From the NCBI GenBank assembly GCA_037013685.1, contig CM072885.1:64831785-64895784 (forward strand): DNA of 64,000 nt, in the 5' to 3' direction. The position numbers and the translations under genes were made by a program. Shown piece after piece: positions 27,411 through 64,000 of the stretch (position 1 is the stretch's first letter; every line of letters begins with the position of its first letter). The notes below the pieces were generated by a model that had not been told where the DNA came from, made no database searches, and worked only from the letters and a program-made list of their open reading frames with translations. The stretch is from Acridotheres tristis. Its lineage: Eukaryota > Chordata > Aves > Passeriformes > Sturnidae.

Positions 27411-27419
27411 CTTTAGTGA

Positions 27420-41565: not shown

Positions 41566-41880
41566 GGGAAATACCTGGGCAGAAAAGGGTCAGGTGGTCC
41601 CCTGGACCACAGGCTGATCAGGAGCCAGCAGATGTCCCCACAGCCTGTAGAGCATGCCCTGCAAGGTCATGGGGGGTGATCCTTGCCCACCACTCAGCAC
41701 TGATGAGACACACCTGGAGGGCTGGTTCTGGAATCCCAGGATGAGGAAGGCGTGTCCATACTGGAGCAAGTCTGGCAGAGGGCCACTAAGGTGAGAAGGT
41801 GCATGGGCAGAGGCTGGGAGAGCTCTGCTGACTTTTCTTGGTCTGGAGCAGTCTGGGCTGTCTGGTCAGGGTGTACAAAC
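41566..41880 (+). repeat. CR1 fragment spanning the left edge of the duplicated unit
   Basis: CCTGGACCACAGGCTGATCA, then ATCCTTGCCCACCACTCAGC, then TCCATACTGGAGCAAGTCTG follow the order of a CR1 ORF2-to-3'UTR region. The repeated unit starts inside it at 41,679: sequence to the left is not repeated in units 2 and 3 while sequence to the right is. Confidence 0.75.
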
Positions 41881-42741
41881 GCCTGACTGAAGGTGGGTGG
41901 GTGAAAGACACAAGCAAGACACTCTTCAATGCAGAGATGGCAGGAGACACAATGTTCACAAATGGAACTGTGGCAAGTTGGAAAGGAAGGAATGGTGGTG
42001 AAACACTGGCTGAGGTAGCCCAGAGCGGTTGTGGAGTCCCTGTGCTGGGACCAGAGTTGTCATGAGTCCATCCATGGTGCTGCTGTGCGTGGAAGGAGGT
42101 GGGGAGGCAAGAGGAATATGGGATGCTACAGAGCAATATTAGTTTCAGGCAGCTGAGGAGGAACTACAGTAAACCCTAAATTTAGTGGCTGTACTGGTAA
42201 GGGAGGGATTTTATGAAAGTGCCTGCATGCCTCATGCAAGGGAAGCTCAGCCAGCCTTGACCACAGGGGCAAGGGGGAACTGTCACAGAATGAGGGACAC
42301 CTGAATGTGGCAAAGTCCTTCAATGAGATCAATGGCATGTGAAGGAGTATTCCCTAATAACATATGTAAGGTATTTGGTTAAGAGAATGTGTTTCTAAGG
42401 GGGCGTTCTGTACTTAGGTCTTGGTGTGGGAGCAGGCAGCTCCATGGAAAGGTCAGATTAGTTATCGTGGCAGCCCCAGAAGGAGCGAGAGCACTGGGAA
42501 TTCTTAGCAAAGGAGGAGAAAAGGAAAACCAGAAATGCTCCTGGCTCCAACTGAAACTTAAAGTGTACTGAAAATGAGGTCTGAATTTCTTTCTTTGTTT
42601 CATAATTAGGTGGGTTCTTTGCAATACTACGTATATCCTTTCTATCTGCTGCGCACTGGATAAATGACTGATGTCATATCCTCCTTCATCTATTGTGTTT
42701 GTCCATATATTAAGGCTGTTTCTCTTGTCATTTCTTTTCAG

Positions 42742-42853
42742 AAGGAGGAATTGCCAGTACATAGAGTTGTAGGCACTCTCAACAGACTCCAGCCTCTTAA
42801 AACTCTTCACCAGCTGAACAATGAATTCCATGGTGTCTTGAACATAGGGACAG
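42742..42853 (+). other. Candidate 5' non-coding exon of A4GALT copy 1
   Basis: Bounded by a good acceptor (CATTTCTTTTCAG) and a donor (GACAG then GTGAGT), about 1.9 kb before the A4GALT coding exon. The A4GALT coding exon itself has a splice acceptor three bases before its ATG, so upstream untranslated exons must exist. The homologous segment in units 2 and 3 keeps both splice sites although the surrounding sequence has diverged. Confidence 0.4.
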
Positions 42854-43632
42854 GTGAGTAGTGTTTGCAATTTCTTTGCAATGGCCCTTGCATTTTCGGA
42901 GGAAGAGATAGAGCCAGTCTTCCTGTCTTTGTTTTGTAAAAGAATTACACAGGCTAATGCATTGTCTAAAGCGTTGCCTTATCTGCTCCAAAAGCAGAAA
43001 CTTCCTAAATTTATAGGGATGTGATGGCAGTAAAGTTCGGTCTTTACCTCAAAATGCCCTGACAACCTTGAACCTTGCTTGTGGTTAGACTAGCGTGGCA
43101 CTTTCGTGCCCCTCTGCTGCACAGGAACTTCCCCCAAAGCCGCTTTCTCTTCTTGTGCTCACAAAACAAAAAAATTATTTACAGGATTAAGCCAGTTATG
43201 GTATGGAGGGTGGGGAATGAAAAGGGTCTGTAAAAGGCAGGATGGGCTGGCTTTTGCTGCCTGTAGCATTGGCAGCACGCGCTGGCATTTCTGTGCAGAA
43301 GGAGAAAACCTTCTGGGGATACAGAGCTGATCATTTGTCTATCGGCTGCCTTTCCTCTGTCTCCCAGTGCTTGGTGCAGAGTGGTGGCTCCATGCTCTGA
43401 CATTTGGATGCCTCCCAGTGTAGCTGACAAGTCAGTTTTGGCTCCATGTATGACCTAGGCACAGTGATCAAGGAGCAATGACAAATGGGACTGTGCCACC
43501 CCTGTCGCGTTCCTTGCCACTTTGCTTATGCCTGTTGGATTGAAGCTTTTCCTGTTTTCTGAACCTTTCTGTCCTGGGGCATGGGGCTTTGGAGATGGAG
43601 CTCATGGAGGTGAGAGAAATTACTCAATGCTT

Positions 43633-43885
43633 TAGCATGGAAGAGACCTTTGAGATGCTTGAGTCCAATCCCAAAGCACACTCTGTCAAGTCCACCATTC
43701 AACCAAGTCCCTAAGTGCCACATCCACACATCTCTTAATTACATCCAGGGACAGTGGCTCCACTACATTCTTGGGCTGCCTGTGCCAGTGCCTGATAACT
43801 CTTCCAGGGAGTAAAATTCTGAGTAACATCCACTCTGACCTCCCTTGGCACAACTTGAGACCATTTCCCCTGGTCCTAAAAGCCA
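43633..43885 (-). repeat. CR1 3' end fragment in unit 1
   Basis: Antisense CR1 order: GCATGGAAGAGACCTTTGAG, TTGAGTCCAATCCC, CTAAGTGCCACATCCACAC, GCCAGTGCCTGATAAC, CTGGTCCTAAAAG. Present at the same place in all three units, so it predates the duplication. Confidence 0.85.
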
Positions 43886-44750
43886 CACCCTTCCTCACTG
43901 CTTCTTCCTGTGCTGTTCCCCATTGACCTTTGGGGCCCAGTGGTGGAGGAGGAGGTGCTGCTTCTGCTGCCCTTCACTTTAAGGAGAGGCAAGGGCAGCA
44001 ATGCTGATGTTAACACTGAGGATGGAGCTAGACTGACTTATCTGTTTGTGGCTGCCTCGTTAAGAATCTCTTCCTCTCCATCCCTCCCTTTTGCCAGAAG
44101 AGGAGAGCAAGTTAGGGCAGGAGAGTGGAGGGATTGCCTGTCCACCAACAGGATCTACTGAGAGAGCTGAGCAGGTCAGAGCCAGTGAGGGCTGTGCAGG
44201 GCAGGGAAGCAGCCTTGGAACGCCCTTTACAAAGGCAGTTCTTGACCTAATTGTCTGCATCAGCCTCCAGGGCTGCCCTGTATCCATTCCTTTCCCATCC
44301 TCATCCATCCTGCCAGGATATGTAACATGAACAATGGGCCAGGCTCTCTGCAGGGGAAGGTGGTTGGTTTGGAAAGGCAGCAACTGCCACATCAACAGCC
44401 TGGAAGACTGAGGCTTGTGTTTGGTTTGAGGAAGGACATGTTGTGTATCAGGAGTAAACAACAGCTCTCATGACAACCAGCTGGCAGCAGCTCCACATAG
44501 TGTCTGTTCAGAGGCTCCAGGAATGGTCCTAAGGAACATTGCTATTTCCTCCTGCCAGGACCTTTGCAGACGTGTCTCATGTCTCCTGTTCACAGTGACT
44601 TGAAATTCTAGAGGGTGACAGATGAGGTTTATAATGGTGTTCCAGAGTTTGTTGTGCACTGCTATGAAGGTGGGACACACCTGTGAATGAAAGCTCATAC
44701 TCTGCTGCCTCATCTGTCAGGTTTTTCTCTTCTTTCCTTTCCTTCAGATC

Positions 44751-45884
44751 ATGATGGCTGTCTCGGGAGAGCAGGCTCTGGCTGGAGAGAGAATGCTCCG
44801 GATGCCCAGCTGCCTCCTAAAGCTCACCAGAGTGGTGCTGAGCCACAAACCCTGGGCCCTGTTTTTCCTCATCTTTGTGTTCATATCCTTCACCTACCAC
44901 AAGTTCTACTGGGGTATCTGGGAGGACTCAGAGAACAGACTCCCCACCTATGACTTGTCTGCTGAGATCGTCTGTGCTCACTATGTGACTTCTCCCATCA
45001 ACATTTCTGGTGAGCCCCCTCCTTCTGCAGGAAATGTGTTTTTTGTGGAGACCTCAGAGCAAACTTCCCCAAGTTACCTGTTCTCATGTTCTGTGGAGTC
45101 AGCAGCCAGGACACATCCTGAATCAAGAGTTGTGGTGCTGATGAAAGGCTTGGCCAAAGAGAACGCTTCCCTACCCAAGCACTGGGCTTTCTCCTTGCTG
45201 AGATGCTTCCCCAACGTGGAAATCCAACCCCTGGACTTGACAGAGCTCTTTTCTGGAACACCTCTGGCACAGTGGTACGTGCAGCATCAGCGGCACCAGG
45301 AGCCTCATTTTTTAGCAGTCCTGTCTGACGCCTGTAGGATTGTCCTCATGTGGAAATTTGGTGGCATCTACCTGGATACAGACTTCATTGTGCTTAAGAA
45401 CTTACAGAACCTCACCAATGCCCTTGGGATTCAGGATCATGATGTACTGAATGGGGCCTTTCTGTCCTTTAAGTCCAAGCACAAGTTCATGGCGCTTTGC
45501 ATGCAGGACTTTGTGGAGGACTACAATGGCTGGGTCTGGGGACACCAGGGCCCAGAGCTCCTAACTCGTGTCTTCAAGAAGTGGTGCTCCATCAAGACTA
45601 TCAAGACCATGAGCTGCCAAGGTGTGAGTGCTCTTGCCCCAGAAGTTGTTTATCCTATTCCCTGGCAGGACTGGAAGAAGTTGTTTGAGGCAGTCAGTGC
45701 CTCAGAGCTTCACCAGCTCCTGAAGAACACCTATGCAGTGCACATATGGAACAAGCTGAGCCATGGGACCAAGTTAGAGATCCACTCCCAGGCTCTGCTG
45801 GCTCAGCTCTATTCCCAGTTCTGCCCTGCCACCTATGCAAAGATGAAAGAGGACTCTGAAGAGTTGTCAAAGCGTGCAGTGTGA
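44751..45884 (+). CDS. A4GALT: Alpha-1,4-galactosyltransferase, copy 1 (ancestral-like)
   Basis: Type II Golgi glycosyltransferase of family GT32 that transfers galactose alpha-1,4 to terminal beta-galactose, making Gb3 (Pk) from lactosylceramide and P1-type Gal-alpha-1,4-Gal. 377 residues, near the length of human A4GALT. Seen in order: cytoplasmic N-terminus, signal anchor about 36-54 (LFFLIFVFISFTY), a stem, then NVFFVETS and ESAARTHPESRVVVLMKGL. The donor/metal site GGIYLDTDFIVLKNL has DXD at 209-211. Then LNGAFLSF, NGWVWGHQGP (259-268), LLTRVFKKWCS, YPIPWQDWKK and TYAVHIWNK. Gln228 matches human Gln211, which controls acceptor choice. Sequons at N84, N138 and N220. The whole CDS is one exon with an acceptor (CCTTCAG) three bases before the first ATG; a second in-frame ATG follows at once. 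A4GNT is excluded by the closer match to A4GALT throughout. It keeps human-like residues that copies 2 and 3 have lost. Confidence 0.96.
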   Translation: MMAVSGEQALAGERMLRMPSCLLKLTRVVLSHKPWALFFLIFVFISFTYHKFYWGIWEDSENRLPTYDLSAEIVCAHYVTSPINISGEPPPSAGNVFFVETSEQTSPSYLFSCSVESAARTHPESRVVVLMKGLAKENASLPKHWAFSLLRCFPNVEIQPLDLTELFSGTPLAQWYVQHQRHQEPHFLAVLSDACRIVLMWKFGGIYLDTDFIVLKNLQNLTNALGIQDHDVLNGAFLSFKSKHKFMALCMQDFVEDYNGWVWGHQGPELLTRVFKKWCSIKTIKTMSCQGVSALAPEVVYPIPWQDWKKLFEAVSASELHQLLKNTYAVHIWNKLSHGTKLEIHSQALLAQLYSQFCPATYAKMKEDSEELSKRAV

Positions 45885-46365
45885 CCTGTAGGGTCTTGGC
45901 AGTGGGGATGTTCCCCAGACTGAAGGAAATAGAGTGCCTTTCACCTTCCCCAGAGCTGGGTTCTAGACTCCAGAGGAGGTGTTCTGTGAGACAGCTCTGT
46001 TGTTTTTTGACTAATATCCCTGGTATCTGCCTCAGATCCTTTGTTTCAAATTTACAGCAGAACCTGAGTTCAGCCTCTTTTGCTGTTCTTCAGGAGACCT
46101 GTTGCTGCAGGGAAGGTTGAAGTTGTTCATCAGCACCTCTCAGCTGGTTCTCTCTTGGTGTTCTCCAATGGCTCCTCCTGTGGATCCCAGGCTCAGCAGC
46201 CCCTTGTGATGTTTCAACAGCTGTAGGGACCCGTGGCTTGCTGTCTGTGGCATTTCCGAGCTTTTAAATCGCTGCCAGGCAGTGCCCAAGGTCATTTTTC
46301 TGCACCTCAGAACAGAATTCCCTGGCTTGCCCAGATGCTTTATGCCTGGGGAATAACATGGGGGT

Positions 46366-47061
46366 TGTTGGGGGTTGAATTGTTCCCTTTTCTTTCTGTG
46401 GAATTTTTCCCATTGTTATGTTAAATATTTGTGGCTACACCTTAGTAGCAATAGTTTTCTCTCGCTGGGGGGTGGGGCATAGTGGGACACGGGAAAAGGA
46501 AAGGTGGGACAGGGGCTTGGGCTTTTGCTCTCTCACTTCACTCGGGGAGTGAAAGGAGGATGGCCCGTGCTCCGATCTTCCCTGCCATCCCAGCGCCGAG
46601 ATCCACGCTCCCAGCCATCGAAAACCGCTCTGCTCCTCTCCCACTTCATCCCACTACCTCCGGACACTCTGCCGAGCACCACGACCCACACCGTGAGGGG
46701 GAGTCGCTCCTCCATCCCTCTCACCCCTGGGCGGCCGCCATCACTCCAGCCCCTCTTCAACTGCGCGGGCCCTGCCCTGCCCACAGCACCGGGAACTGAG
46801 CGCAGGGAGACGGCCTGCGGCCAAAAGGGACTGGAACTGAGCTATACTGTTTTATTGTCAGTTTTTATAGCTGTTGTTGTTTCTGCTGTTTGCCTTGTTA
46901 GGTATATCAGTAAAGAACTGTAATTCCTATCCCCATATCTTCGGCCTGAAAACTTCTGTTTTGAAACTATAATAAATAGAAGGGAGGGGGTTGCACTCTG
47001 CATCTCAGGAAAGGGGTTCTCGCCTTTCTTTAGCAAAATACCTGTCTTTCAAACTGAAACA
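46366..47061 (+). mobile_element. Solo ERV-type LTR in the 3' flank of A4GALT copy 1
   Basis: About 696 bp present only in unit 1. It runs from TGTTGGGGGTTGAATTG to CAAACTGAAACA (TG...CA) and interrupts sequence that is continuous in units 2 and 3 (ATACATGAAGAGTACC, then TGAAAATTGC). It is GC-rich in the middle and ends with a T-rich part, an ATAATAAATAG and a CTTTCTTTAGC segment, like an R-U5 region. No internal retroviral genes. The direct repeats at its borders (GGGGT and GGGAT) are imperfect. Confidence 0.65.
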
Positions 47062-47719
47062 GGGATCTATGAAAATTGCTGTAAGAAGTAGAAAACATTT
47101 TACATCCCTGCATGGCTCAGTGATAAGTTCTTCTGAACTTCTAAAGGGAGAAATGTTCAAATGGTGCTTTCCACTGTTTCAGATTCCACAGCAGAGGGGT
47201 GACTTTTCTGGGACTCCTCAGGGAAACAAATAGACAAAAGCAATTATTTTAGAAAGGGAAATTATAAACATCCTTGCTCTGCTGAATTAATTCTTATAGG
47301 ACAACAACATCTATCCAGGCATTGTCACACTCTGAAGAGTCTTAGCATTGCCTGTTTCTGCAGTGCTGTGAGGTGGATTATGTCCCTTTCATTGGAATAT
47401 TGAGTGCATTGTGAAAGGCCAGAGCATGACATGTCCCCATCAACAGGACCAGGTCCAGGACTCAGAGCCGTGTTCCCAGGGACAAAAATAAAAACTCAGA
47501 AGCAGATGAAAGTTGGAAAGACGTCCAGGATCGAGTCCAGTCTTCAACTAAGTATCATCATAGGCACTGGCCTTTATCCCAAAATGCCATGGGTACTCAG
47601 TTTTTGGAGCACTTCCAGGAATGGTGACTCCATCACTTCTCTGGGGATGCCGTGGTACACAGTGCTTAAACACTTTGAATTTATACTTAATTTCCAAGCT
47701 GAAACTACTGTGGTGCAGG

Positions 47720-48224
47720 GGATGCTGCACCCAGCCCTGGGCCAGTACAGGCAGGACAAGGACCTGCTGGAGCCACGACAGAGCAGGGACACCAAGGGAT
47801 CAGAGGGGTGGAGCAGCTCTGCTGGGAGGAAAGGCTCAGGGAATGGGGATTGTTCAGCCTGGAGAGGAGAAGGCTTTGGGGTGACCTCATTGTGGCCTTC
47901 CAGTGCCTGAAGGGAGCTCACAGGAAAGATGCAGACAGACTCTTGACAAGGGCATGGAGTGACAGGACAAGGGGCAATGGCTTCACGCTTACAGAGAACA
48001 CGTTTAAATTGGCAAGGAGGAAACAATTGTTCCCTGTGAGGGTGGTGAGGCCCTGGCACAGGTTGCCCAGAGAAGCTGTGGCTGCCCATGGATCCCTGGA
48101 ACAGTCCGAGGCCAGACTGGACAGGGCTTGGAGCAGCCTGGGATAGTGGAAGGTGCCCCATGGCAGGAGGGATGGAAGAAGATGATCTTTAAAGTCCCTT
48201 CCAACCCAAACCATTCCATTGATT
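47720..48224 (+). repeat. CR1 3' end in unit 1
   Basis: Runs through GGCCAGTACAGGCAGGACAA, TTGTTCAGCCTGGAGAGGAG, TTGTGGCCTTCCAGTGCCTG, GGTTGCCCAGAGAAGC and AAAGTCCCTTCCAACCCAAA. It is longer at the 5' side than the counterparts in units 2 and 3. Confidence 0.88.
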
Positions 48225-48249
48225 TCCCCTTCCCTCTGCCTTGTTCCCT

Positions 48250-50852
48250 GGGAGCAAAGTCTGACCCCCACTTGGCTGCCCCTTCCTGTCAGGGGGCTGT
48301 GCACAGCAGTAGGGCCCCCCTGAGCCTCTTTTCCTCCAGGTTAAACACCCCCAGCTCCCTCAGCCCCTCCTCATCAGCCTTGTGCTCCTGCCCCTTGCCC
48401 AGATCCTTTCCCTTCTCTGCACAAGCTCCAGTCCCTCAATGTCCCTCTGCAGTGACAGGCCCAGAACTGGACACAGCATTTGGGCTGAGGGGGATGGACA
48501 GTCACTGCCCTGGTCCTGCTGGCCACACCATTGCTGACCCAGCCCAGGTGCCATTGGCCTTCCTGCCCACCTGAGCACACGCTGTGGACCAGCAACCCCA
48601 GGCCCTTTCCTGCTGGGCTCTCCCCCAGCCTCGAGCTGCTGGAGGTTGTGGCCAAGGGGCTGGAGGTGGCACTTGGCCCTGTTGAACCTCATGTGAAACA
48701 CGACTGGCCCTGACAGTGGGCCCTGGGGCACAGCACCAGTGACCTGCTGCCACCTGCATTAATTCCAGCACCACTCCCCGGGCCCAGCCATCCAGGCAGT
48801 TTTTTCCCAGCAAACAGGGAAGCTGTTAAATCCATGGCCTGCAAGGACCATGCTCTCCAGGAGAATGCTGTGGGAGCAGTGATCAAAGGCTTTACTGAAG
48901 GCCCTGGTATACAACATCCACAGCCTTTCCCCATCCATTAGGTGTTCATAGGAGGAGGTTTGGTCAGTCAAGAAAGACCTGCTTAAACAACCCGTGCCTG
49001 ATGCCCCAGTGGTGCAGCACACATCATGTGATTGCGCTCCACGTAATCTGTTCCATACCCTTCCCTGGCACCAAGGTCAGGCTGACAGGCCTGTGGTTCC
49101 CCCAGTTGTCCTTCCAAGACCTCTCACAGATCTGTCTCATGTTGGCCAACCTCCAGTCACCCAGGAGATCTCCAGTTAACCAGGACCGCTGATAAACAAT
49201 GGAGAGTGGAGCTTCGTCAGCTGCTTCACCAACTCCCTCCATAGCCTTATGAAGAAGGATGGCATCTCCCTACACTTGTGCATGTCTGGGCAGCACAGCA
49301 GCTCACGAACAACTTCCTCCTGCAGTGTGGGGACTTCATTCTGCTCCCTGTTTTCGTCTTCCAGCTCAGGGGGCTGGATATGCAGAGGGTAACTGGGCTT
49401 TCCGTGAAAGGCTGAGGTCACTGAGTACTTCAGCCTTTTCCTCATCCCTGGAGGTAATGTTCCCACTGCAGCATGCAATAAAGGATGGAGAATCTCCTTG
49501 GCCTCTTTTTGTTACTAATGTATTTGGAAAAGCTTTTTCTCTTAACTTTTATGCTGCTGACCAGATTGACTTCTAGCTGGACTTCTACCTTTCTAGTTCT
49601 CTCTCTGCTTATCTCCATGACATCCTTGTAGTATTCCTGAGTTGCCTGACTGTTCTTCCAGAGCTGCTAAACTCTCTGTTCATCCCTGAGTCCCAGTGGA
49701 AGCTTGCTGTTCATCCAGGCAAGCCTTCCTGAATCAGCACATTGGAATGGGCTCCTACTCTACCTGTATGACCTCCTTCCTGAGGAATGTTCAGCCTTCC
49801 TGGGCTCCTTGGCCCCTCGGGACTTCCTCCCAAGGGATTCTCTCAAGCAGTGGTCTGCACAGACCAAAGCCTGTCCTCCACAAATCCAAGGTAGTGGTTT
49901 TGCTGAGCCCCTTCCTTCCTCCCTCCTTTCACTAAGAACCGAAATCAAATCATGTCACAGTCACTGCACCCAAGATGCCTCAGGCAATCTCATCTCCCAC
50001 CAGTGCTGCTCTGTTTGTAAACAGCAGCTCCTCGGGGACACCTCAACTGGTGGGCTCACCTACCAGATTGTCCTGGGGTACAATTCAAAAATGTGTATTC
50101 TATCACCATCTGTTAAAATGTGGGAGGGGTAGTGATCCTTATCTCTGTGGGAGATATCCTCTGCTGATGTGCCATCTGATAAGATCAGGGGGATGATCAT
50201 CGTTATCTTTTCAAAACCCATCCTTCCTCCAGAAGATATATTCCGTTAATGGGCCATTAAGTCCTCTTGTGTGACTGATAAGATTACATCATCCCACTGG
50301 GAGACGATCCAGCAAGGGGGAGGAGACACGCCCTTCCTACCTAGATAAAAAAACTGGGGTTTGGGACGCGAAGGCAGACCTTTCCACTGGATCCCAGAGG
50401 AAAGTGGGACCATTTCCACATCATCGCTGGATCTTCAGAGGAAAACTGCACCTTCTACAGGAGCACTGCTTCAACTGATCCACATCTGTCATCCAGGAGG
50501 ACTGCAACCACCATTCCACGATTTACACGGACTGCTACCAACACCCTGACTGACAGGGAGTCAGGTTGTATTTCTGACTTTGTCAGTGGTTTTTCTTTTA
50601 TATTATTGCATGTATTTTATTTTTTCTCTTTTCTCCTATTAAATTGTATTACTGACTTGGAGTCTCACACTGGTTTTGCTTTCAAACCAACACATAGCTG
50701 TGTCAGGAAGTTCTCTTCCACCTGCTCCAGGAACCTCCTGGAGTGTCTCCTGTCTGCTGGATGGGATTCCAGCAGACACCTGGTAAGTTGAAGATGTCAC
50801 TGGGGATGTCAGCAGTGGATGAGGTGGGGTCATCCATCTACCCCTAATGGAA
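48250..50852 (-). mobile_element. CR1 LINE with ORF2 remnants, inverted, split by a solo LTR (unit 1)
   Basis: On the - strand the segment carries CR1 ORF2 pieces in order: FLEQVEENFL-like DNA near 50,790, a region with AKEPRKAEHS, then EEVVRELLCC, then LSIVYQRSWLTGDLLGDWR, NHRPVSLTLVPGKGMEQ and FSKAFDHCSHSILLE. It ends near GAGGGGCTGAGGGAGCTGG. It lacks the last few hundred bases of a CR1. Stops and indels make it defective. The LTR at about 50,078-50,690 interrupts it; the copies in units 2 and 3 are uninterrupted. Confidence 0.85.
50078..50690 (+). mobile_element. Solo ERV LTR inserted in the CR1 of unit 1
   Basis: Absent from units 2 and 3, whose sequence runs straight from GGGCTCACCTCCCAG to CTGTGTCAGGAAG. 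The insert begins TGTCCTGGGGTACAATTC and ends TTTCAAACCAACA. Near the end it has a CTATTAAATTGTATTACTG polyadenylation-like region. It is related, in opposite orientation, to the LTR at 35,398-36,222. It inserted after unit 1 separated from the ancestor of units 2 and 3, or was not copied with them. Confidence 0.75.
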
Positions 50853-51910
50853 ATCCTTGCCCGCCACTCAGCACTGATGAGACACACCTGGAGGGCTGGT
50901 TCTGGAATCCCAGGATGAGGAAGGCGTGTCCATACTGGAGCAAGTCTGCCAAAGGGCCACTAAGGTGAGAAGGTGCATGGGCAGAGGCTGGGAGAGCTCT
51001 GCTGACTTTTCTTGGTCTGGAGCAGTCTGGGCTGTCTGGTCAGGGTGTACAAACACCTGACTGAAGGTGGGTGGGTGAAAGACACAAGCAAGACACTCTT
51101 CAATGCAGAGATGGCAGGAGACACAATGTTCACAAATGGAACTGTGGCAAGTTGGAAAGGAAGGAATGGTGGTGAAACACTGGCTGAGGTAGCCCAGAGC
51201 GGTTGTGGAGTCCCTGTGCTGGGACCAGAGTTGTCATGAGTCCATCCATGGTGCTGCTGTGCGTGGAAGGAGGTGGGGAGGCAAGAGGAATATGGGATGC
51301 TACAGAGCAATATTAGTTTCAGGCAGCTGAGGAGGAACTACAGTAAACCCTAAATTTAGTGGCTGTACTGGTAAGGGAGGGATTTTACGAAAGTGCCTGC
51401 ATGCCTCATGCAAGAGAAGCTCAGCCAGCCTTGACCACAGGGGCAAGGGGGAACTGTCACAGAATGAGGGACACCTGAATGTGGCAAAGTCCTTCAATGA
51501 GATCAATGGCATGTGAGGGAGTATTCCCTAATAACATATGTAAGGTATTTGGTTAAGAGAATGTGTTTCTAAGGGGGCGTTCTGTACTTAGGTCTTGGTG
51601 TGGGAGCAGGCAGCTCCATGGAAAGGTCAGATTAGTTATCATGGCAGCCCCAGAAGGAGCGAGAGCACTGGGAATTCTTAGCAAAGGTAAAAAATAAATC
51701 CAGACGTTTTCCTGTCATGGTCTAAGGTGTGGTGACAAAGGAGGAGCTATTTGCTCAGTTTTATTCTGTATTTAAAGTTACTTTTTAACTAACTTCTTGG
51801 TTCCTAGCTGTTCTTTGTGACCTTTGCATCCATTAATATCTACATAATTGCTGTTGCACTCTCCCCTTTTGTTTTCCCCGGCCTCTCCATCTGGCATTAT
51901 TCATTTTCAG

Positions 51911-52024
51911 AAGAAGAATGATCAGCCACATACTGGAGTTGTAATCATCCTCTCAAAATTTAATTTCTTAAATATCTCTCCCAGCTGAACAGGGAACTCC
52001 GTGGGGTCTTGAAAGAGGAGACAG
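51911..52024 (+). other. Candidate 5' non-coding exon of A4GALT copy 2
   Basis: Counterpart of the unit 1 segment at 42742. Acceptor (CATTTTCAG) and donor (GACAG then GTGAGT) are kept, while the inside differs clearly from copy 1. Confidence 0.4.
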
Positions 52025-52812: not shown

Positions 52813-53683
52813 ACACCCTTCCTCACTGCTTCTTCCTGTGCTGTTCCCCATTGACCTTTGGAGCTCAGTGGTAGCGGAGGAGGAGGTGCTGCTTCTGCTG
52901 CCCTTCACCTTAAGGAGAGGCAAGAGCAGCAGTGCTGATGCTAACACTGAGGATGGAGCTAGACTGACTTATCTGTTTGTGGCTGCCTCGTTAAGAATCT
53001 CTTCCTCTCCATCCCTCCCTTTTGCCGGAAGAGGAGAGCAAGTTAGGGCAGGAGAGTGGAGGGATTGCCTGTCCACCAACAGGATCTACTGAGAGAGCTG
53101 AGCAGGTCAGAGCCAGTGAGGGCTGTGCAGGGCAGGGAAGCAGCCTTGGAACGCCCTTTACAAAGGCAGTTCTTGACCTAATTGTCTGCATCAGCCTCCA
53201 GGGCTGCCCTGTATCCATTCCTTTCCCATCCTCCATCCATCCTGCCAAGATATGTAACATGAACAATGGGCCAGGCTCTCTGCAGGGGAAGGTGGTTGGT
53301 TTGGAAAGGCAGCAACTGCCACATCAACAGCCTGGAAGACTGAGGCTTGTGTTTGGTTTGGGGGAAGGACATGTTGTGTATCAGGAGTAAACAACAGCTC
53401 TCATGACAACCAGCTGGCAGCAGCTCCACATAGTGTCTGTTCAGAGGCTCCAGGAATGGTCCTAAGGAACATTGCTATTTCCTCCTGCCAGGACCTTTGC
53501 AGACGTGTCTCATGTCTCCTGTTCACAGTGACTTGAAGTTCTATAGGGTGACAGATGAGGTTTGTAATGGTGTTCCAGAGTTTGTTGTACACTGCTATGA
53601 AGGTGGGACACACCTGTGAATGAAAGCTCATACTCTGCTGCCTCATCTGTCAGGTTTTTCTCTTCTTTCCTTTCCTTCAGATC

Positions 53684-54817
53684 ATGATGGCTGTCTCGGG
53701 AGAGCAGGCTCTGGCTGGAGAGAGAATGCTCCGGATGCCCAGCTGCCTGCTAAAGCTCACCAGAGTGGTGCTGAGCCACAAACCGTGGGCCCTGTTTTTC
53801 CTCATCTTTGTGTTCATATCCTTCACCTACCACAAGTTCTACTGGGGTATCTGGGAGGACTCAGAGAACAGACTCCCCACCTATGACTCGTCTGCTGAGA
53901 TCGGCTGTGCTCACTATGTGACTTCTCCCATCAACATTGCTGGTGAGTCCCCTCCTTCTGCAGGAAATGTGTTTTTTGTGGAGACCTCAGAGCAAACTTC
54001 CCCAAGTTACCTGTTCTCATGCTCTGCGGAGTCAGCAGCCAGGACACACCCTGAATCAAGAGTCGTGGTGCTGATGAAAGGCTTGGCCAAAGAGAACGCT
54101 TCCCTACCCAAGCACTGGGCTTTCTCCTTGCTGAGATGCTTCCCCAACGTGGAAATCCAACCCCTGAACTTGACAGAGCTCTTTTCTGGAACACCTCTGG
54201 CACAGTGGTACGTGCAGCCTCAGCGGCAGCAGGAGCCTCATTTTCCAGTTATCCTGGCTGATGCCGCCAGGATTGTCCTCATGTGGAAATTTGGTGGCAT
54301 CTACCTGGATACAGACTTCATTGTGCTTAAGAACTTACAGAACCTCACCAATGCCCTTGGGATTCAGGATCATGATGTACTGAATGGGGCCTTTCTGTCC
54401 TTTAAGCCCAAGCACAAGTTCATGGAGCTTTGCATGCAGGACTTTGTGGAGAACTACAATCCCTGGATCTGGGGACACCAGTGCCCAGGGCTCCTAACTC
54501 GTGTCTTCAAGAAGTGGTGCAACATCAAGACTATCGAGACCATGAGCTGCCAAGGTGTGAGTGCTCTTGCCCCAGAAGTTGTTTATCCTATTCCCTGGCA
54601 TCACTGGAAGAAGTTGTTTGAGGCAGTCAGTGCCTCAGAGTTTCACCAGCTCCTGAAGAAAACCTATGCAGTGCACATATGGAACAAGCTGAGCCATGGG
54701 ACCAAGTTAGTGATCCACTCCCAGGCTCTGCTGGCTCAGCTCTATTCCCAGTTCTGCCCTGCCACCTATGCAAAGATGAAAGAGGACTATGAAGAGTTGT
54801 CAAGGCGTGCAGTGTGA
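53684..54817 (+). CDS. A4GALT: Alpha-1,4-galactosyltransferase, copy 2 (derived)
   Basis: Same architecture and length (377 residues) as copy 1, with intact signal anchor, DXD (209-211), Gln228 and C-terminal domain, and a splice acceptor just before the ATG. It differs from copy 1 at 29 residues. Many differences cluster at 179-195 (QPQRQQEPHFPVILADAARI) and 242-285. In the latter, NGW becomes NPW and GHQGPE becomes GHQCPG. Sequon N84 is lost (NIA) and a new one appears at N162 (NLT). Changes private to this copy include Q306H/D307H in the conserved PWQDW motif (here PWHHW), N326K and S369Y. No stop or frameshift, so it is presumably translatable. Whether it still makes Gb3, uses another acceptor, or is decaying cannot be told from sequence alone. 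Confidence 0.94.
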   Translation: MMAVSGEQALAGERMLRMPSCLLKLTRVVLSHKPWALFFLIFVFISFTYHKFYWGIWEDSENRLPTYDSSAEIGCAHYVTSPINIAGESPPSAGNVFFVETSEQTSPSYLFSCSAESAARTHPESRVVVLMKGLAKENASLPKHWAFSLLRCFPNVEIQPLNLTELFSGTPLAQWYVQPQRQQEPHFPVILADAARIVLMWKFGGIYLDTDFIVLKNLQNLTNALGIQDHDVLNGAFLSFKPKHKFMELCMQDFVENYNPWIWGHQCPGLLTRVFKKWCNIKTIETMSCQGVSALAPEVVYPIPWHHWKKLFEAVSASEFHQLLKKTYAVHIWNKLSHGTKLVIHSQALLAQLYSQFCPATYAKMKEDYEELSRRAV

Positions 54818-55524
54818 CCTGTAGGGTCTTGGCAGTGGGGATGTTCCCCAGACTGAAGGAAATAGAGTGCCTTTCACCTTTCCCAGAGCTGGGTTCTAGA
54901 CTCCAGAGGAGGTGTTCTGTTTGACAGCTCTGTTGTTTTGTGACTAATGTCCCTGGTATCTGCCTCAGATCCTTTGTGTTTCAAATTTACAGCAGAACCT
55001 GAGTCAGCCTTCCTTGCTGTCCTTCAGGAGACCTGTTGCTGAAGGGAAGGTTGAAGTTGTTCATCAGCACCTCTCAGCTGGTTCTCTCTTGGTGTTCTCC
55101 AATGGGTCCTCCTGTGGATCCCAGGCTCAGCAGCCCCTTGTGATGTTTCAACAGCTGTAGCGACCCTTGGCTTGCTCTCTGTGGCATTTCTGAGTTTTTA
55201 AATCACTGCGAGACAGTGCCAAAGGGCGTGGTTTTCTGGAGCTCAGAACAGAATTCCCTGGCTGGCCAAGATCCTTTATGCCTGGGGAAATACATGAAGA
55301 GTACCTGAAAATTGCTTTAAGAAGCAGAAAACATTTTACATCCCTGCATGGCTCAGTGTAAAGTTCTTCTGAACTTCTAAAGTGAGAAATGTTCAAATGA
55401 TGCTTCCTACTGTTTCAGATTCCACAGCAGAGGAATGACTTTTCTGGGACTCGGACAATAATCCAATGCACTTCTGCCTTGTCTTAGCGCAGAGGATCAC
55501 TCTGTAAATATGAACTGCATTCTC

Positions 55525-55530
55525 AATAAA
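55525..55530 (+). promoter_or_regulatory. Probable poly(A) signal of A4GALT copy 2
   Basis: AATAAA about 710 bases after the stop codon, in CTCAATAAAATGCC. The same site is present in unit 3. It is absent from unit 1, whose 3' flank is different from 47,214 onward. Confidence 0.5.
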
Positions 55531-55607
55531 ATGCCTTCTTTTCCAGAAGGAGGTCTGTGTTGGGATCATTGCTTTCTCTAGTGCAGTAACGACATCCTGC
55601 CAGGAGC

Positions 55608-55966
55608 AGAGAAGGCTTTGAGGCTCCCTCATTGTGGCCTTCAAGTGCCTGAAGGGAGACCACAGGAAAGATGCAGACAGACTCTTTGCAAGGATCTGCA
55701 GTGATAGGACAAGGGGCAACGGCTTCACACTTACAGAGAACACGTTTAAATTGGCTAGGAGGAAACAATTGTTCCCTGTGAGGGTGGTGAGGCCCTGGCA
55801 CAGGTTGCCCAGAGAAGCTGTGGCTGCCCATGGATCCCTGGAACAGTCCGAGGCCAGACTGGACAGGGCTTGGAGCAGCCTGGGATAGTGGAAGGTGCCC
55901 CATGGCAGGAGGGATGGAAGAAGATGATCTTTAAAGTCCCTTCCAACCCAAACCATTCCATTGATT
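55608..55966 (+). repeat. CR1 3' end in unit 2
   Basis: Same terminal CR1 segment as in unit 1 but starting only at about GAGAAGGCTTTGAGG. The sequence before it is the unit 2/3-specific 3' flank of A4GALT. Confidence 0.85.
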
Positions 55967-55991
55967 TCCCCTTCCCTCTGCCTTGTTCCCT

Positions 55992-57963
55992 GGGAGCAAA
56001 GTCTGACCCCCACTTGGCTGCCCCTTCCTGTCAGGGGGCTGTGCACAGCAGTAGGGCCCCCCTGAGCCTCTTTTCCTCCAGGTTAAACACCCCCAGCTCC
56101 CTCAGCCCCTCCTCATCAGCCTTGTGCTCCTGCCCCTTGCCCAGATCCTTTCCCTTCTCTGCACAAGCTCCAGTCCCTCAATGTCCCTCTGCAGTGACAG
56201 GCCCAGAACTGGACACAGCATTTGGGCTGAGGGGGATGGACAGTCACTGCCCTGGTCCTGCTGGCCACACCATTGCTGACCCAGCCCAGGTGCCATTGGC
56301 CTTCCTGCCCACCTGAGCACACGCTGTGGACCAGCAACCCCAGGCCCTTTCCTGCTGGGCTCTCCCCCAGCCTCGAGCTGCTGGAGGTTGTGGCCAAGGG
56401 GCTGGAGGTGGCACTTGGCCCTGTTGAACCTCATGTGAAACACGACTGGCCCTGACAGTGGGCCCTGGGGCACAGCACCAATGACCTGCTGCCACCTGCA
56501 TTAATTCCAGCACCACTCCCCGGGCCCAGCCATCCAGGCAGTTTTTTCCCAGCAAACAGGGAAGCTGTTAAATCCATGGCCTGCAAGGACCATGCTCTCC
56601 AGGAGAATGCTGTGGGAGCAGTGATCAAAGGCTTTACTGAAGGCCCTGGTATACAACATCCACAGCCTTTCCCCATCCATTAGGTGTTCATAGGAGGAGG
56701 TTTGGTCAGTCAAGAAAGACCTGCTTAAACAACCCGTGCCTGATGCCCCAGTGGTGCAGCACACATCATGTGATTGCGCTCCACATAATCTGTTCCATAC
56801 CCTTCCCTGGCACCAAGGTCAGGCTGACAGGCCTGTGGTTCCCCCAGTTGTCCTTCCAAGACCTCTCACAGATCTGTCTCATGTTGGCCAACCTCCAGTC
56901 ACCCAGGAGATCTCCAGTTAACCAGGACCGCTGATAAACAATGGAGAGTGGAGCTTCGTCAGCTGCTTCACCAACTCCCTCCATAGCCTTATGAAGAAGG
57001 ATGGCATCTCCCTACACTTGTGCATGTCTGGGCAGCACAGCAGCTCACGAACAACTTCCTCCTGCAGTGTGGGGACTTCATTCTGCTCCCTGTTTTCGTC
57101 TTCCAGCTCAGGGGGCTGGATATGCAGAGGGTAACTGGGCTTTCCGTGAAAGGCTGAGGTCACTGAGTACTTCAGCCTTTTCCTCATCCCTGGAGGTAAT
57201 GTTCCCACCGCAGCATGCAATAAAGGATGGAGAATCTCCTTGGCCTCTTTTTGTTACTAATGTATTTGGAAAAGCTTTTTCTCTTAACTTTTATGCTGCT
57301 GACCAGATTGACTTCTAGCTGGACTTCTACCTTTCTAGTTCTCTCTCTGCTTATCTCCATGACATCCTTGTAGTATTCCTGAGTTGCCTGACTGTTCTTC
57401 CAGAGCTGCTAAACTCTCTGTTCATCCCTGAGTCCCAGTGGAAGCTTGCTGTTCATCCAGGCAAGCCTTCCTGAATCAGCACATTGGAATGGGCTCCTAC
57501 TCTACCTGTATGACCTCCTTCCTGAGGAATGTTCAGCCTTCCTGGGCTCCTTGGCCCCTCGGGACTTCCTCCCAAGGGATTCTCTCAAGCAGTGGTCTGC
57601 ACAGACCAAAGCCTGTCCTCCACAAGTCCAAGGTAGTGGTTTTGCTGAGCTCCTTCCTTCTTCTCTCCTTTCACTGAGAACCAAAATCAAATCATGTCAC
57701 AGTCACTGCACCCAAGATGCCTCAGGCAATCTCATCTCCCACCAGTGCTGCTCTGTTTGTAAACAGCAGCTCCCCGGGGACACCTCAACTGGCGGGCTCA
57801 CCTCCCAGCTGTGTCAGGAAGTTCTCTTCCACCTGCTCCAGGAACCTCCTGTAGTGTTTCCTATATGCTGGATGGGATTCCAGCAGACACCTGGTAAGTT
57901 AAAGATGTCACTGGGGATGTCAGCAGTGGATGATGTGGGGTCGTCCATCTACCCCTAATGGAA
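55992..57963 (-). mobile_element. CR1 LINE with ORF2 remnants, inverted (unit 2)
   Basis: Uninterrupted counterpart of the unit 1 element, with the same ORF2 remnants (RPVSLTLVPGKGMEQ, AFSKAFDHCSHSILLE). It forms the right end of the duplicated unit. Confidence 0.87.
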
Positions 57964-59014
57964 ATCCTTTCCCGCCACTCAGCACTGATGAGACACACCT
58001 GGAGGGCTGGTTCTGGAATCCCAGGATGAGGAAGGCGTGTCCATACTGGAGCAAGTCTGGCAAAGGGCCACTAAGGTGAGAAGGTGCACGGGCAGAGGCT
58101 GGGAGAGCTCTGCTGACTTTTCTTGGTCTGGAGCAGTCTGGGCTGTCTGGTCAGGGTGTACAAACGCCTGAGTGAAGGTGGGTGGGTGAAGGACACAAGC
58201 AAGATCACTGCAGAGATGGCAGGAGACACAATGTTCACAAATGGAACTGTGGCAAGTTGGAAAGGAAGGAATGGTGGTGAAACACTGGCTGAGGTAGCCC
58301 AGAGCGGTTGTGGAGTCCCTGTGCTGGGACCAGAGTTGTCATGAGTCCATCCATGGTGCTGCTGTGCGTGGAAGGAGGTGGGGAGGCAAGAGGAATATGG
58401 GATGCTACAGAGCAATATTAGTTTCAGGCAGCTGAGGAGGAACTACAGTAAACCCTAAATTTAGTGGCTGTACTGGTAAGGGAGGGATTTTACGAAAGTG
58501 CCTGCATGCCTCATGCAAGAGAAGCTCAGCCAGCCTTGACCACAGGGGCAAGGGGGAACTGTCACAGAATGAGGGACACCTGAATGTGGCAAAGTCCTTC
58601 AATGAGATCAATGGCATGTGAGAGAGTATTCCCTAATAACATATGTAAGGTATTTGGTTAAGAGAATGTGTTTCTAAGGGGGCGTTCTGTACTTAGGTCT
58701 TGGTGTGGGAGCAGGCAGCTCCATGGAAAGGTCAGATTAGTTATCATGGCAGCCCCAGAAGGAGTGTGGGCACTGGGAATACTTAGCAAAGGCAAAAGAA
58801 AATCCAGACGTTTTCCTGTCATGGTCTAAGGTGTGGTGACAAAGGAGGAGCTATTTGCTCAGTTTTATTCTGTATTTAAAGTTACTTTTTAACTAACTTC
58901 TTGGTTCCTAGCTGTTCTTTGTGACCTTTGCATCCATCAATATCTGCATAATTGCTGTCTCACACTCCCCATTTGTTTTCCCTGGCCTCTCCATCTGGCA
59001 TTGTTCATTTTCAG

Positions 59015-59128
59015 AAGAAGAATGATCAGCCACATACTGGAGTTGTAATCATCCTCTCAAAATTTAATTTCTTAAATATCTCTCCCAGCTGAACAGGGAA
59101 CTCCGTGGGGTCTTGAAAGAGGAGACAG
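59015..59128 (+). other. Candidate 5' non-coding exon of A4GALT copy 3
   Basis: Identical or nearly so to the copy 2 segment, with the same acceptor and donor. Confidence 0.4.
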
Positions 59129-59663
59129 GTGAGTTTTGTGCCTTCTCTATGGCACCGATGCGGTTCTGCAAAGTCCGCACTTCTTTGCCTTCTACAGCTT
59201 AAAACATTATTTACGGGATAAACCCAGCTCTGGTATGGAGGGTGGGTAATGAAAAGGGTCTGTAAAAGGCAGGATGGGCTGGCTTTTGCTGCCTGTAGCA
59301 TTGGCAGCACGCGCTGGCATTTCTGTGCAGAAGGAGAAAACCTTCTGGGGATACAGAGCTGATCATTTGTCTATCGGCTGCCTTTCCTCTGTCTCCCAGT
59401 GCTTGGTGCAGAGTGGTGGCTCCATGCTCTGACATTTGGATGCCTCCCAGTGTAGCTGACAAGTCAGTTTTGGCTCCATGTATGACCTACGCACAGTGAT
59501 CAAGGAGCAATGACAAATGGGACTGTGCCACCTCTGTCGTGTTCCCTGCCACTTTGCTTATGCCTGTTGGATTGAAGCTTTTCCTGTTTTCTGAACCTTT
59601 CTGTCCTGGGGCATGGGGCTTTGGAGATGGAGCTCATGGAGGTGAGAGAAATTATTCAATGCT

Positions 59664-59918
59664 TTAGCATGGAAGAGACCTTTGAGGTGCTTGAGTCCAA
59701 CCCCAAAGCCCAGTCTGCCAAGTCCACCATTCAACCAAGTCCCTAAGTGCCACATCCACACATCTCTTAATTACATCCAGGGACAGTGGCTTCACTACTT
59801 TCTTGGGCTGCCTGTGCCAGTGCCTGATATCTCCTTCCAGGGAATAAAATTCTGAGTAACATCCAGTCTGACCTCCCTTGGCACAACTTGAGACCATTTC
59901 CCCTGGTCCTAAAAGCCA
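59664..59918 (-). repeat. CR1 3' end fragment in unit 3
   Basis: Orthologous position and sequence order to the CR1 fragment at 43,633 in unit 1. Confidence 0.85.
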
Positions 59919-60780
59919 CAACCTTCCTCACTGCTTCTTCCTGTGCTGTTCCCCATTGACCTTTGGGGCCCAGTGGTGGAGGAGGAGGTGCTGCTTCTGC
60001 TGCCCTTCACCTTAAGGAGAGGCAAGGGCAGCAATGCTGATGCTAACACTGAGGATGGAGCTAGACTGACTTATCTGTTTGTGGCTGCCTCGTTAAGAAT
60101 CTCTACCACTCCATCCCTCCCTTTTGCCAGAAGACGAGAGCAAGTTAGGGCAGGAGAGTGGAGGGATTGCCTGTCCACCAACAGGATCTACTGAGAGAGC
60201 TGAGCAGGTCAGAGCCAGTGAGGGCTGTGCAGGGCAAGGAAGCAGCCTTGGAAGGCCCTTTACAAAGGCAGTTCTTGACCTAATTGTCTGCATCAGCCTC
60301 CAGGGCTGCCCTGTATCCATTCCTTTCCCATCCTCCATCCATCCTGCCAAGATATGTAACATGAACAATGGGCCAGGCTCTCTGCAGGGGAAGGTGGTTG
60401 GTTTGGAAAGGCAGCAACTGCCACATCAACAGCCTGGAAGACTGAGGCTTGTGTTTGGTTTGGGGGAAGGACATGTTGTGTATCAGGAGTAAACAACAGC
60501 TCTCATGACAACCAGCTGGCAGCAGCTCCACATAGTGTCTGTTCAGAGGCTCCAGGAATGGTCCTAAGGAACATTGCTATTTCCTCCTGCCAGGACCTTT
60601 GCAGACGTGTCTCATGTCTCCTGTTCACAGTGACCTGAAATTCTAGAGGGTGACAAATGAGGTTTTTAATGGTGTTCCAGAGTTTGTTGTGCACTGCTAT
60701 GAAGGTGGGACACACCTGTGAATGAAAGCTCATACTCTGCTGCCTCATCTGTCAGGTTTTTCTCTTCTTTCCTTCAGATC

Positions 60781-61914
60781 ATGATGGCTGTCTCGGGAGA
60801 GCAGGCTCTGGCTGGAGAGAGAATGCTCCGGATGCCCAGCTGCCTGCTAAAGCTCACCAGAGTGGTGCTGAGCCACAAACCCTGGGCCCTGTTTTTCCTC
60901 ATCTTTGTGTTCATATCCCTCACCTACCAAAAGTTCTACTGGGGTATCTGGGAGGACTCAGAGAACAGACTCCCCACCTATGACTCGTCTGCTGAGATTG
61001 GCTCTGCTCACTATGTGACTTCTCCCATCAACATTTCTGGTGAGCCCCCTCCTTCTGCAGGAAATGTGTTTTTTGTGGAGACCTCAGAGCAAACTTCCCC
61101 AAGTTACCTGTTCTCATGCTCTGCGGAGTCAGCAGCCAGGACACACCCTGAATCAAGAGTCGTGGTGCTCATGAAAGGCTTGGCCAAAGAGAACGCTTCC
61201 CTACCCAAGCACTGGGCTTTCTCCTTGCTGAGATGCTTCCCCAACGTGGAAATCCAACCCCTGAACTTGACAGAGCTCTTTTCTGGAACACCTCTGGCAC
61301 AGTGGTACGTGCAGCCTCAGCGGCAGCAGGAGCCTCATTTTCCAGTTATCCTGGCTGATGCCTCCAGGATTGTCCTCATGTGGAAATTTGGTGGCATCTA
61401 CCTGGATACAGACTTGATTGTGCTTAAGAACTTACAGAACCTCACCAATGCCCTTGGGATTCAGGATCATGATGTACTGAATGGGGCCTTTCTGTCCTTT
61501 AAGCCCAAGCACAAGTTCATGGAGCTTTGCATGCAGGACTTTGTGGAGAACTACAATCCCTGGATCTGGGGACACCAGTGCCCAGGGCTCCTAACTCGTG
61601 TCTTCAAGAAGTGGTGCAACATCAAGACTATCGAGACCATGAGCTGCCAAGGTGTGAGTGCTCTTGCCCCAGAAGTTGTTTATCCTATTCCCTGGCAGGA
61701 CTGGAAGAAGTTGTTTGAGGCAGTCAGTGCCTCAGAGTTTCACCAGCTCCTGAAGAACACTTATGCAGTGCACATATGGAACAAGCTGAGCCATGGGACC
61801 AAGTCAGTGATCCACTCCCAGGCTCTGCTGGCTCAGCTCTATTCCCAGTTCTGCCCTGCCACCTATGCAAAGATGAAAGAGGACTCTGAAGAGTTGTCAA
61901 AGCGTGCAGTGTGA
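60781..61914 (+). CDS. A4GALT: Alpha-1,4-galactosyltransferase, copy 3 (derived)
   Basis: 377 residues from the ATG at 60781. The open frame extends in phase to an ATG at 60718, but that part is intron, because the CTTTCCTTCAG acceptor lies directly before 60778 as in the other copies. It shares with copy 2 the clusters at 179-195 and 242-285 (NPW, GHQCPG, N162 sequon). It keeps copy 1-like residues at the PWQDW motif, N326 and the C-terminus. Private changes: F47L, H50Q, C75S (loss of a stem cysteine kept in copies 1 and 2), F212L directly after the DXD motif, and L342S. It differs from copy 2 at 13 residues and from copy 1 at 27. Intact and presumably functional as a Golgi transferase of the same family. 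Confidence 0.94.
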   Translation: MMAVSGEQALAGERMLRMPSCLLKLTRVVLSHKPWALFFLIFVFISLTYQKFYWGIWEDSENRLPTYDSSAEIGSAHYVTSPINISGEPPPSAGNVFFVETSEQTSPSYLFSCSAESAARTHPESRVVVLMKGLAKENASLPKHWAFSLLRCFPNVEIQPLNLTELFSGTPLAQWYVQPQRQQEPHFPVILADASRIVLMWKFGGIYLDTDLIVLKNLQNLTNALGIQDHDVLNGAFLSFKPKHKFMELCMQDFVENYNPWIWGHQCPGLLTRVFKKWCNIKTIETMSCQGVSALAPEVVYPIPWQDWKKLFEAVSASEFHQLLKNTYAVHIWNKLSHGTKSVIHSQALLAQLYSQFCPATYAKMKEDSEELSKRAV

Positions 61915-62622
61915 CCTGTAGGGTCTTGGCAGTGGGGATGTTCCCCAGACTGAAGGAAATAGAGTGCCTTTCACCTTTCCCAGAGCTGGGTTCTAGACTC
62001 CAGAGCAGGTGTTCTGTGAGACAGCTCTGTGGTTTTTTGACTAATATCCCTGGTATCTGCCTCAGATCCTTTGTGTTTCAAATTTACAGCAGAACCTGAG
62101 TTCAGCCTCCCTTGCTGTCCTTCAGGAGACCTGTTGCTGCAGGGAAGGTTGAAGTTGTTCATCAGCACCTCTCAGCTGGTTCTCTCTTGGTGTTCTCCAA
62201 TGGGTCCTCCTGTGGATCCCAGGCTCAGCAGCCCCTTGTGATGTTTCAACAGCTGTAGTGACCCTTGGCTTGCTCTCTGTGGCATTTCTGAGTTTTTAAA
62301 TCACTGCGAGACAGTGCCAAAGGGCGTGGTTTTCTGGAGCTCAGAACAGAATTCCCTGGCTGGCCAAGATCCTTTATGCCTGGGGAAATACATGAAGAGT
62401 ACCTGAAAATTGCTTTAAGAAGCAGAAAACATTTTACATCCCTGCATGGCTCAGTGTAAAGTTCTTCTGAACTTCTAAAGTGAGAAATGTTCAAATGATG
62501 CTTCCTACTGTTTCAGATTCCACAGCAGAGGAATGACTTTTCTGGGACTCGGACAATAATCCAATGCACTTCTGCCTTGTCTTAGCGCAGAGGATCACTC
62601 TGTAAATATGAACTGCATTCTC

Positions 62623-62628
62623 AATAAA
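62623..62628 (+). promoter_or_regulatory. Probable poly(A) signal of A4GALT copy 3
   Basis: Same AATAAA context as in unit 2, at the equivalent distance after the stop codon. Confidence 0.5.
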
Positions 62629-62705
62629 ATGCCTTCTTTTCCAGAAGGAGGTCTGTGTTGGGATCATTGCTTTCTCTAGTGCAGTAACGACATCCTGCCA
62701 GGAGC

Positions 62706-63064
62706 AGAGAAGGCTTTGAGGCTCCCTCATTGTGGCCTTCCAGTGCCTGAAGGGAGACCACAGGAAAGATGCAGACAGACTCTTTGCAAGGATCTGCAGT
62801 GATAGGACAAGGGGCAACGGCTTCACACTTACAGAGAACACGTTTAAATTGGCTAGGAGGAAACAATTGTTCCCTGTGAGGGTGGTGAGGCCCTGGCACA
62901 GGTTGCCCAGAGAAGCTGTGGCTGCCCATGGATCCCTGGAACAGTCCGAGGCCAGACTGGACAGGGCTTGGAGCAGCCTGGGATAGTGGAAGGTGCCCCA
63001 TGGCAGGAGGGATGGAAGAAGATGATCTTTAAAGTCCCTTCCAACCCAAACCATTCCATTGATT
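62706..63064 (+). repeat. CR1 3' end in unit 3
   Basis: Same as the unit 2 copy, with only scattered substitutions. Confidence 0.85.
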
Positions 63065-63089
63065 TCCCCTTCCCTCTGCCTTGTTCCCT

Positions 63090-64000
63090 GGGAGCAAAGT
63101 CTGACCCCCACTTGGCTGCCCCTTCCTGTCAGGGGGCTGTGCACAGCAGTAGGGCCCCCCCGAGCCTCTTTTCCTCCAGGTTAAACACCCCCAGCTCCCT
63201 CAGCCCCTCCTCATCAGCCTTGTGCTCCTGCCCCTTGCCCAGATCCTTTCCCTTCTCTGCACAAGCTCCAGTCCCTCAATGTCCCTCTGCAGTGACAGGC
63301 CCAGAACTGGACACAGCATTTGGGCTGAGGGGGATGGACAGTCACTGCCCTGGTCCTGCTGGCCACACCATTGCTGACCCAGCCCAGGTGCCATTGGCCT
63401 TCCTGCCCACCTGAGCACACGCTGTGGACCAGCAACCCCAGGCCCTTTCCTGCTGGGCTCTCCCCCAGCCTCGAGCTGCTGGAGGTTGTGGCCAAGGGGC
63501 TGGAGGTGGCACTTGGCCCTGTTGAACCTCATGTGAAACACGACTGGCCCTGACAGTGGGCCCTGGGGCACAGCACCAATGACCTGCTGCCACCTGCATT
63601 AATTCCAGCACCACTCCCCGGGCCCAGCCATCCAGGCAGTTTTTTCCCAGCAAACAGGGAAGCTGTTAAATCCATGGCCTGCAAGGACCATGCTCTCCAG
63701 GAGAATGCTGTGGGAGCAGTGATCAAAGGCTTTACTGAAGGCCCTGGTATACAACATCCACAGCCTTTCCCCATCCATTAGGTGTTCATAGGAGGAGGTT
63801 TGGTCAGTCAAGAAAGACCTGCTTAAACAACCCGTGCCTGATGCCCCAGTGGTGCAGCACACATCATGTGATTGCGCTCCACGTAATCTGTTCCATACCC
63901 TTCCCTGGCACCAAGGTCAGGCTGACAGGCCTGTGGTTCCCCCAGTTGTCCTTCCAAGACCTCTCACAGATCTGTCTCATGTTGGCCAACCTCCAGTCAC
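63090..64000 (-). mobile_element. CR1 LINE, inverted (unit 3, cut by window end)
   Basis: Counterpart of the unit 2 element; the window ends inside its reverse-transcriptase part. Confidence 0.87.

Follow-up and report, generated by a model that had tools for sequence, protein, structure and literature searches.

Results

Structure of the A4GALT array

The stretch analysed here, hereafter the window, covers 64,000 bp of the common myna (Acridotheres tristis) genome (contig CM072885.1 of assembly GCA_037013685.1, forward-strand positions 64,831,785 to 64,895,784) and ends inside a tandem array of A4GALT genes that extends beyond it. Four intact A4GALT frames lie head to tail, each of 377 codons. 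Copies 1 to 3 are on the plus strand at 44751-45884 (a single coding exon), 53684-54817 and 60781-61914, all running from ATG to TGA, and copy 4 lies outside the window, at 68131-69264 in window coordinates (C2:64899915-64901048). Copy 3 appears in the open reading frame (ORF) list as part of a 398-codon frame with a GTG start at 60718. The repeat units that carry these genes, delimited by self-BLAST boundaries and junction sequences, are unit 1 at 41679-50852 (9,174 bp), unit 2 at 50853-57963 (7,111 bp) and unit 3 at 57964-65061 in the genome (7,098 bp, of which the window holds 57964-64000), all on the plus strand, followed by a truncated unit 4 that begins at 65062, outside the window, and ceases to resemble unit 1 at about 69628. 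The original prediction had named three full-length 377-codon A4GALT frames in tandem repeats of 9.2, 7.1 and more than 6 kb; the frames, their order and their identity are borne out by ORFs and Pfam, the repeat lengths agree with our measurements, and the count must be raised to four in the genome. We refer below to copies 1 and 4 as outer and to copies 2 and 3 as inner.

The Pfam models PF04572 (Gb3_synth) and PF04488 (the DXD sugar-binding region) match copies 1 to 3 above their curated cut-offs, with E values no worse than 1e-44 and 3.6e-15 respectively, and copy 4 matches PF04572 in a whole-genome Pfam search. The DXD motif reads DTD at residues 209-211 in all four translations, and the named protein-search matches of the copies are A4GALT or lactosylceramide 4-alpha-galactosyltransferase, not A4GNT. 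The genome-wide PF04572 search scored seven candidates and reported five places, namely the four array copies (copy 4 at C2:64900632-64901009) and a two-exon gene on the minus strand of C14 (C14:5175000-5183000, L010), apart from the array, which by our own naming reads as A4GNT. This A4GNT-like gene retains a GNQGP segment, the G of which has been lost from copies 2 and 3. By homology, each array gene would encode a Golgi type II alpha-1,4-galactosyltransferase, transferring galactose from uridine diphosphate galactose (UDP-Gal) to terminal beta-Gal to give Gal-alpha-1,4-Gal. An AlphaFold model of copy 2, built on 48 aligned proteins and of moderate confidence (mean predicted local distance difference test score, pLDDT, 69; predicted template modelling score, pTM, 0.67), has a predicted helix at residues 21-62, where model confidence is low; no solved structure matching by sequence was found. 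Upstream of all four copies the same pyrimidine-rich stretch and CAG directly precede ATCATG, consistent with a splice acceptor 5' of a single coding exon; the tract of copy 3 has lost four bases.

Gene conversion between units

Self-comparison gives 98.4% identity between units 2 and 3 over 6.2 kb; around the gene, unit 1 reaches 96.5% over 3.2 kb, and it holds roughly 2 kb of DNA that is additional or different. This similarity is patchy. Units 3 and 4 share a tract of 1,234 identical bp (59533-60766 and 66878-68111) that stops 15 bp before the ATG of copy 3 and likewise just before the ATG of copy 4, and their initial 529 bp are also identical. Between these two units, 34 of the 1,134 coding sites are different, compared with 18 of 2,516 sites in the flanks. 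In a mosaic alignment, positions 42214-43215 and most informative coding sites group unit 1 with unit 4 and unit 2 with unit 3, and in the 3' part (48159-49659) units 1, 2 and 3 differ at only 0-2 positions per 500-site window. We read this mosaic as a sign that gene conversion or unequal exchange took place recently; some of the similarity between units could also come from sequence polishing. At 42514-43168, compared with 51688-52096, units 1 and 4 share one version of the sequence, and units 2 and 3 have another that is shorter and does not align with it.

Assembly support

Unmerged haplotypes or misassembled repeats might inflate the number of A4GALT copies, and the accessible part of PMC4377847 warns that many tandem duplicates of more than 95% identity seen only in zebra finch are probably assembly artefacts; polishing with short reads, too, might blur copies that are nearly identical. 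On the other side, the 102 kb examined around the array contain no N, the junction between units occurs three times with the same sequence context, and units 1 and 4 are set apart from units 2 and 3 by stretches of hundreds of bases that have been replaced or are absent. P0001, a protein with exactly the sequence of copy 2, is encoded on a contig of 77,303,064 bp, distinct from the window's contig of 72,486,765 bp, together with a further myna A4GALT protein (P0002) that is not encoded in the window. A PacBio Vertebrate Genomes Project (VGP) assembly from an Israeli bird exists beside the Australian Oxford Nanopore Technologies (ONT) assembly AcTris_vAus2.0, according to the accessible part of PMC10917472, and the 77,303,064-bp contig presumably belongs to the former. 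Since P0001 and P0002 lie on that different contig, the other assembly would hold at least two distinct copies. P0002 looks like another allele or a mosaic of the outer type, because it differs from copy 1 at 7 residues and from copy 4 at 10. An artefact is therefore unlikely, including the unmerged haplotypes that the original prediction had named as a refutation.

Divergence of the inner copies

We scored the copies against 131 alignment columns that are at least 95% conserved in 135 other homologs from birds, reptiles and platypus. Copies 1, 2, 3 and 4 depart from the conserved residue at 0, 4, 5 and 1 of these columns. The changes are V115A, S192A, C195A and G267C in copy 2 and V115A, S192A, C195S, F212L and G267C in copy 3, so that the inner copies have V115A, S192A, G267C and a change at C195 in common, and F212L, found only in copy 3, adjoins the DXD motif. 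S192, F212 and G267 are invariant in all 135 background homologs. Twenty coding differences are fixed between the outer and the inner copies, 14 replacement and 6 silent; an excess of replacement over silent changes was looked for among them and rejected (Fisher P 0.87). Nine of the 20 fall inside 25 bp, a clustering reached in none of 20,000 random draws. The two changed patches (codons 188-195 and 257-269) map in the model of copy 2 to predicted helices 187-203 and 260-263/267-279, that is, to helices just before the DXD and to the GHQGP segment.

Pairwise ratios of replacement to silent substitution rates (dN/dS) are 1.09 for copies 1 and 2, 0.80 for 1 and 3, 0.65 for 1 and 4, 0.93 for 2 and 3, 0.88 for 2 and 4, and 0.63 for 3 and 4. 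Summed over all copies, replacement and silent changes stand at 41:14, close to the neutral replacement share of 0.70-0.77, and intact frames therefore need not mean four equal enzymes. Not one stop or indel is present in the four frames, against 4.3-5.2 expected between the groups by substitution scaling, which speaks for some maintained coding constraint between the groups (P 0.005 to 0.014).

Phylogenetic placement

A protein tree of 74 rows, rooted on turtle and containing the four myna copies and 70 of the 119 other listed proteins, chosen by hand, joins the four copies and P0002 in one clade (100/100) within songbirds, adjoining Buphagus. The canonical, chicken/turtle-type A4GALT1 clade comprises seven rows (Colius_b, Tyto_a, Harpia, Trachemys, Cygnus, Meleagris and Tympanuchus). 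All 49 passerine rows fall outside it, with support of 100/99 for the separation, and the myna copies are thus not of the canonical type. Tyto and Colius have one member each in the canonical clade and in a second neoavian group, and the pigeon proteins are, under the turtle rooting, the group closest to the passerine clade. No passerine protein with more than 74% identity to Tyto A4GALT was found among the best 120 of 359 matches (cluster P0059 has 127 more members outside those). It is because of this search, the tree and the genome-wide PF04572 search that the data suggest that the myna may lack the canonical A4GALT1 gene. Two proteins from one contig were also seen, among the matches listed, in several other birds, for example Lonchura, Ammospiza, Menura, Pluvialis, Columba guinea, Colius and Balearica.

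Position relative to the zebra finch array

The array lies at C2:64.88-64.90 Mb of the 72.5-Mb contig, and Casc1_N exons lie 1.1 Mb downstream, at 65.99 Mb. In zebra finch, the accessible part of PMC4377847, published in 2014, reports three complete tandem copies (A4GALT-1, -2 and -3) on chromosome 1A at 65,194,903, 65,202,780 and 65,210,658, with CASC1-2 at 66.37 Mb, and states that expression of the A4GALT copies was not found in the tissues searched. Because the contig position and the distance to Casc1_N match these coordinates, the myna array appears to occupy the same place on chromosome 1A. In both birds the copies are complete, head to tail and equipped with both domains, at a spacing of about 7.9 kb in zebra finch and 7.1-9.2 kb in myna; whereas the three zebra finch copies are called nearly identical in that part of the paper, the myna has four, whose inner pair departs from the outer pair at conserved residues. 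For zebra finch the same source places a partial CASC1 copy 35 kb upstream; no counterpart was detected in myna, where Casc1_N matched only at 65.99 Mb; Casc1_C gave no match, controls included. The novelty that the original prediction implied for the array does not hold: tandem A4GALT expansion is already published for zebra finch, and the myna is a further songbird example. New in myna are copy 4, the gene conversion and the asymmetry between inner and outer copies. No publication on the myna A4GALT array was found in the literature searched, which left out most subscription papers.

Other features of the window

A dispersed repeat of about 360 bp lies inside the units (55599-55966, with equivalents at 47857-48224 and 62697-63064) and is 80-84% identical to many places on the same contig. 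Units 2 and 3 carry an antisense open frame of 217 amino acids on the minus strand (55393-56046 and 62491-63144), probably arising by chance or from a repeat; that of unit 2 has no Pfam match. In a simple 500-bp scan the sole CpG-island-like stretch of the window is at 27300-28700, and the array units have none. Searches by tblastn for PACSIN2 and ARFGAP3, the neighbours of human A4GALT, found neither in the window or the 102-kb stretch, a negative of weak evidential value.

Discussion

We consider it likely that the four tandem A4GALT genes of the myna form a genuine array on chromosome 1A, at the place of the zebra finch array. Unequal exchange of a 7-9 kb unit would have expanded it, and gene conversion would be homogenising its units in part. 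The outer copies would keep the usual enzyme, and we infer from the changes at otherwise conserved residues that the inner copies have been weakened or altered. Several observations weigh against this account. The flanking DNA of units 2 and 3 differs by just 1.07%, against the genome heterozygosity of 0.71% given in the accessible part of PMC10917472, so that the distinction between copies 2 and 3 is its weakest step. By the same leave-one-out count, 12 of the 135 background homologs (mostly reptiles, also Malurus, Psophia, Cathartes and Podargus) deviate at five or more conserved positions, the median being 1, and the residue changes therefore do not prove altered activity of copies 2 and 3. 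Within the pairs 2-3 and 1-4, moreover, the test of frame intactness reaches only P ~0.10, and the pairs are not independent.

A redundant array in decay, in which copies 2 and 3 are becoming pseudogenes and have intact frames only through youth, is a serious though lesser possibility. The near-neutral proportion of replacement to silent changes, the ratio of 0.93 between copies 2 and 3, and the absence from both of a glycine (G267) that no background protein lacks would all fit such decay, as would the zebra finch copies without detected expression in the tissues examined (PMC4377847, accessible part). However, decay does not readily account for four frames free of stops and indels, and the near-neutral pattern extends to copies 1 and 4 (private changes 10:2 and 4:2), so that copies 2 and 3 are not singled out.

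Rather unlikely, in our view, is that selection for a different acceptor shaped the patches 188-195 and 257-269 of the inner copies, the flanks being kept alike by conversion. The clustering of the fixed differences, the location of the patches in the model (for which the mean pLDDT is only 69) and a coding divergence that exceeds that of the flanks would favour such diversification, and a single residue, position 211, is able to change the acceptor of human A4GALT, according to the accessible part of PMC5149393. Yet the fixed differences carry no replacement excess, and residue 228, which corresponds to human 211 by DXD offset, is Q in all four copies. Changes would be clustered as well if a patch had been copied by conversion from a diverged donor; telling against that objection, the motifs PVILADA, CPGLL and NPWIW occur in none of the 118 other proteins examined. 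A broader scenario, that canonical A4GALT1 was lost and the myna relies on the neoavian-type array, with flanks kept alike by conversion and inner copies remodelled near the catalytic site into transferases whose acceptor or product differs from that of the two conventional copies, we hold to be improbable. That copy number has been inflated by assembly is very unlikely on the evidence of contiguity, recurrent junctions, block differences and a second contig given above.

The human genome has a single A4GALT gene. Human A4GALT (P1PK blood group) belongs to the same family as the myna copies and shares the DXD motif, given as D192TD in the accessible part of PMC11546571, and is described as mainly glycolipid-directed in that of PMC8466213. 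The statement in the original prediction that pigeon has separate alpha-4-galactosyltransferases for protein-linked and lipid acceptors agrees with the latter source, whose accessible part reports that the Gb3/CD77 synthases P and M of pigeon do not use glycoprotein and lipid acceptors alike and that as many as seven genes of this kind may exist in birds. The myna resembles the pigeon as a neoavian bird with several A4GALT paralogs; pigeon P and M, which were assayed in cells, are 93% identical in nucleotide sequence, whereas DNA identity among the myna copies is 96-99%. From the pigeon paralogs, which belong to the sister group in the tree, we infer that the myna enzymes would act more on glycoproteins than on lipids.

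Given the zebra finch report, the array itself is no surprise. It would help in understanding how tandem glycosyltransferase arrays turn over, and four near-identical transferases with a clean contrast between outer and inner copies offer a tractable natural set for finding the residues that govern acceptor choice or activity. Bacterial adhesins and lectins recognise Gal-alpha-1,4-Gal, which glycoproteins of neoavian egg white display (PMC8466213, accessible part), and an array of this kind may contribute to glycan diversity in the myna.

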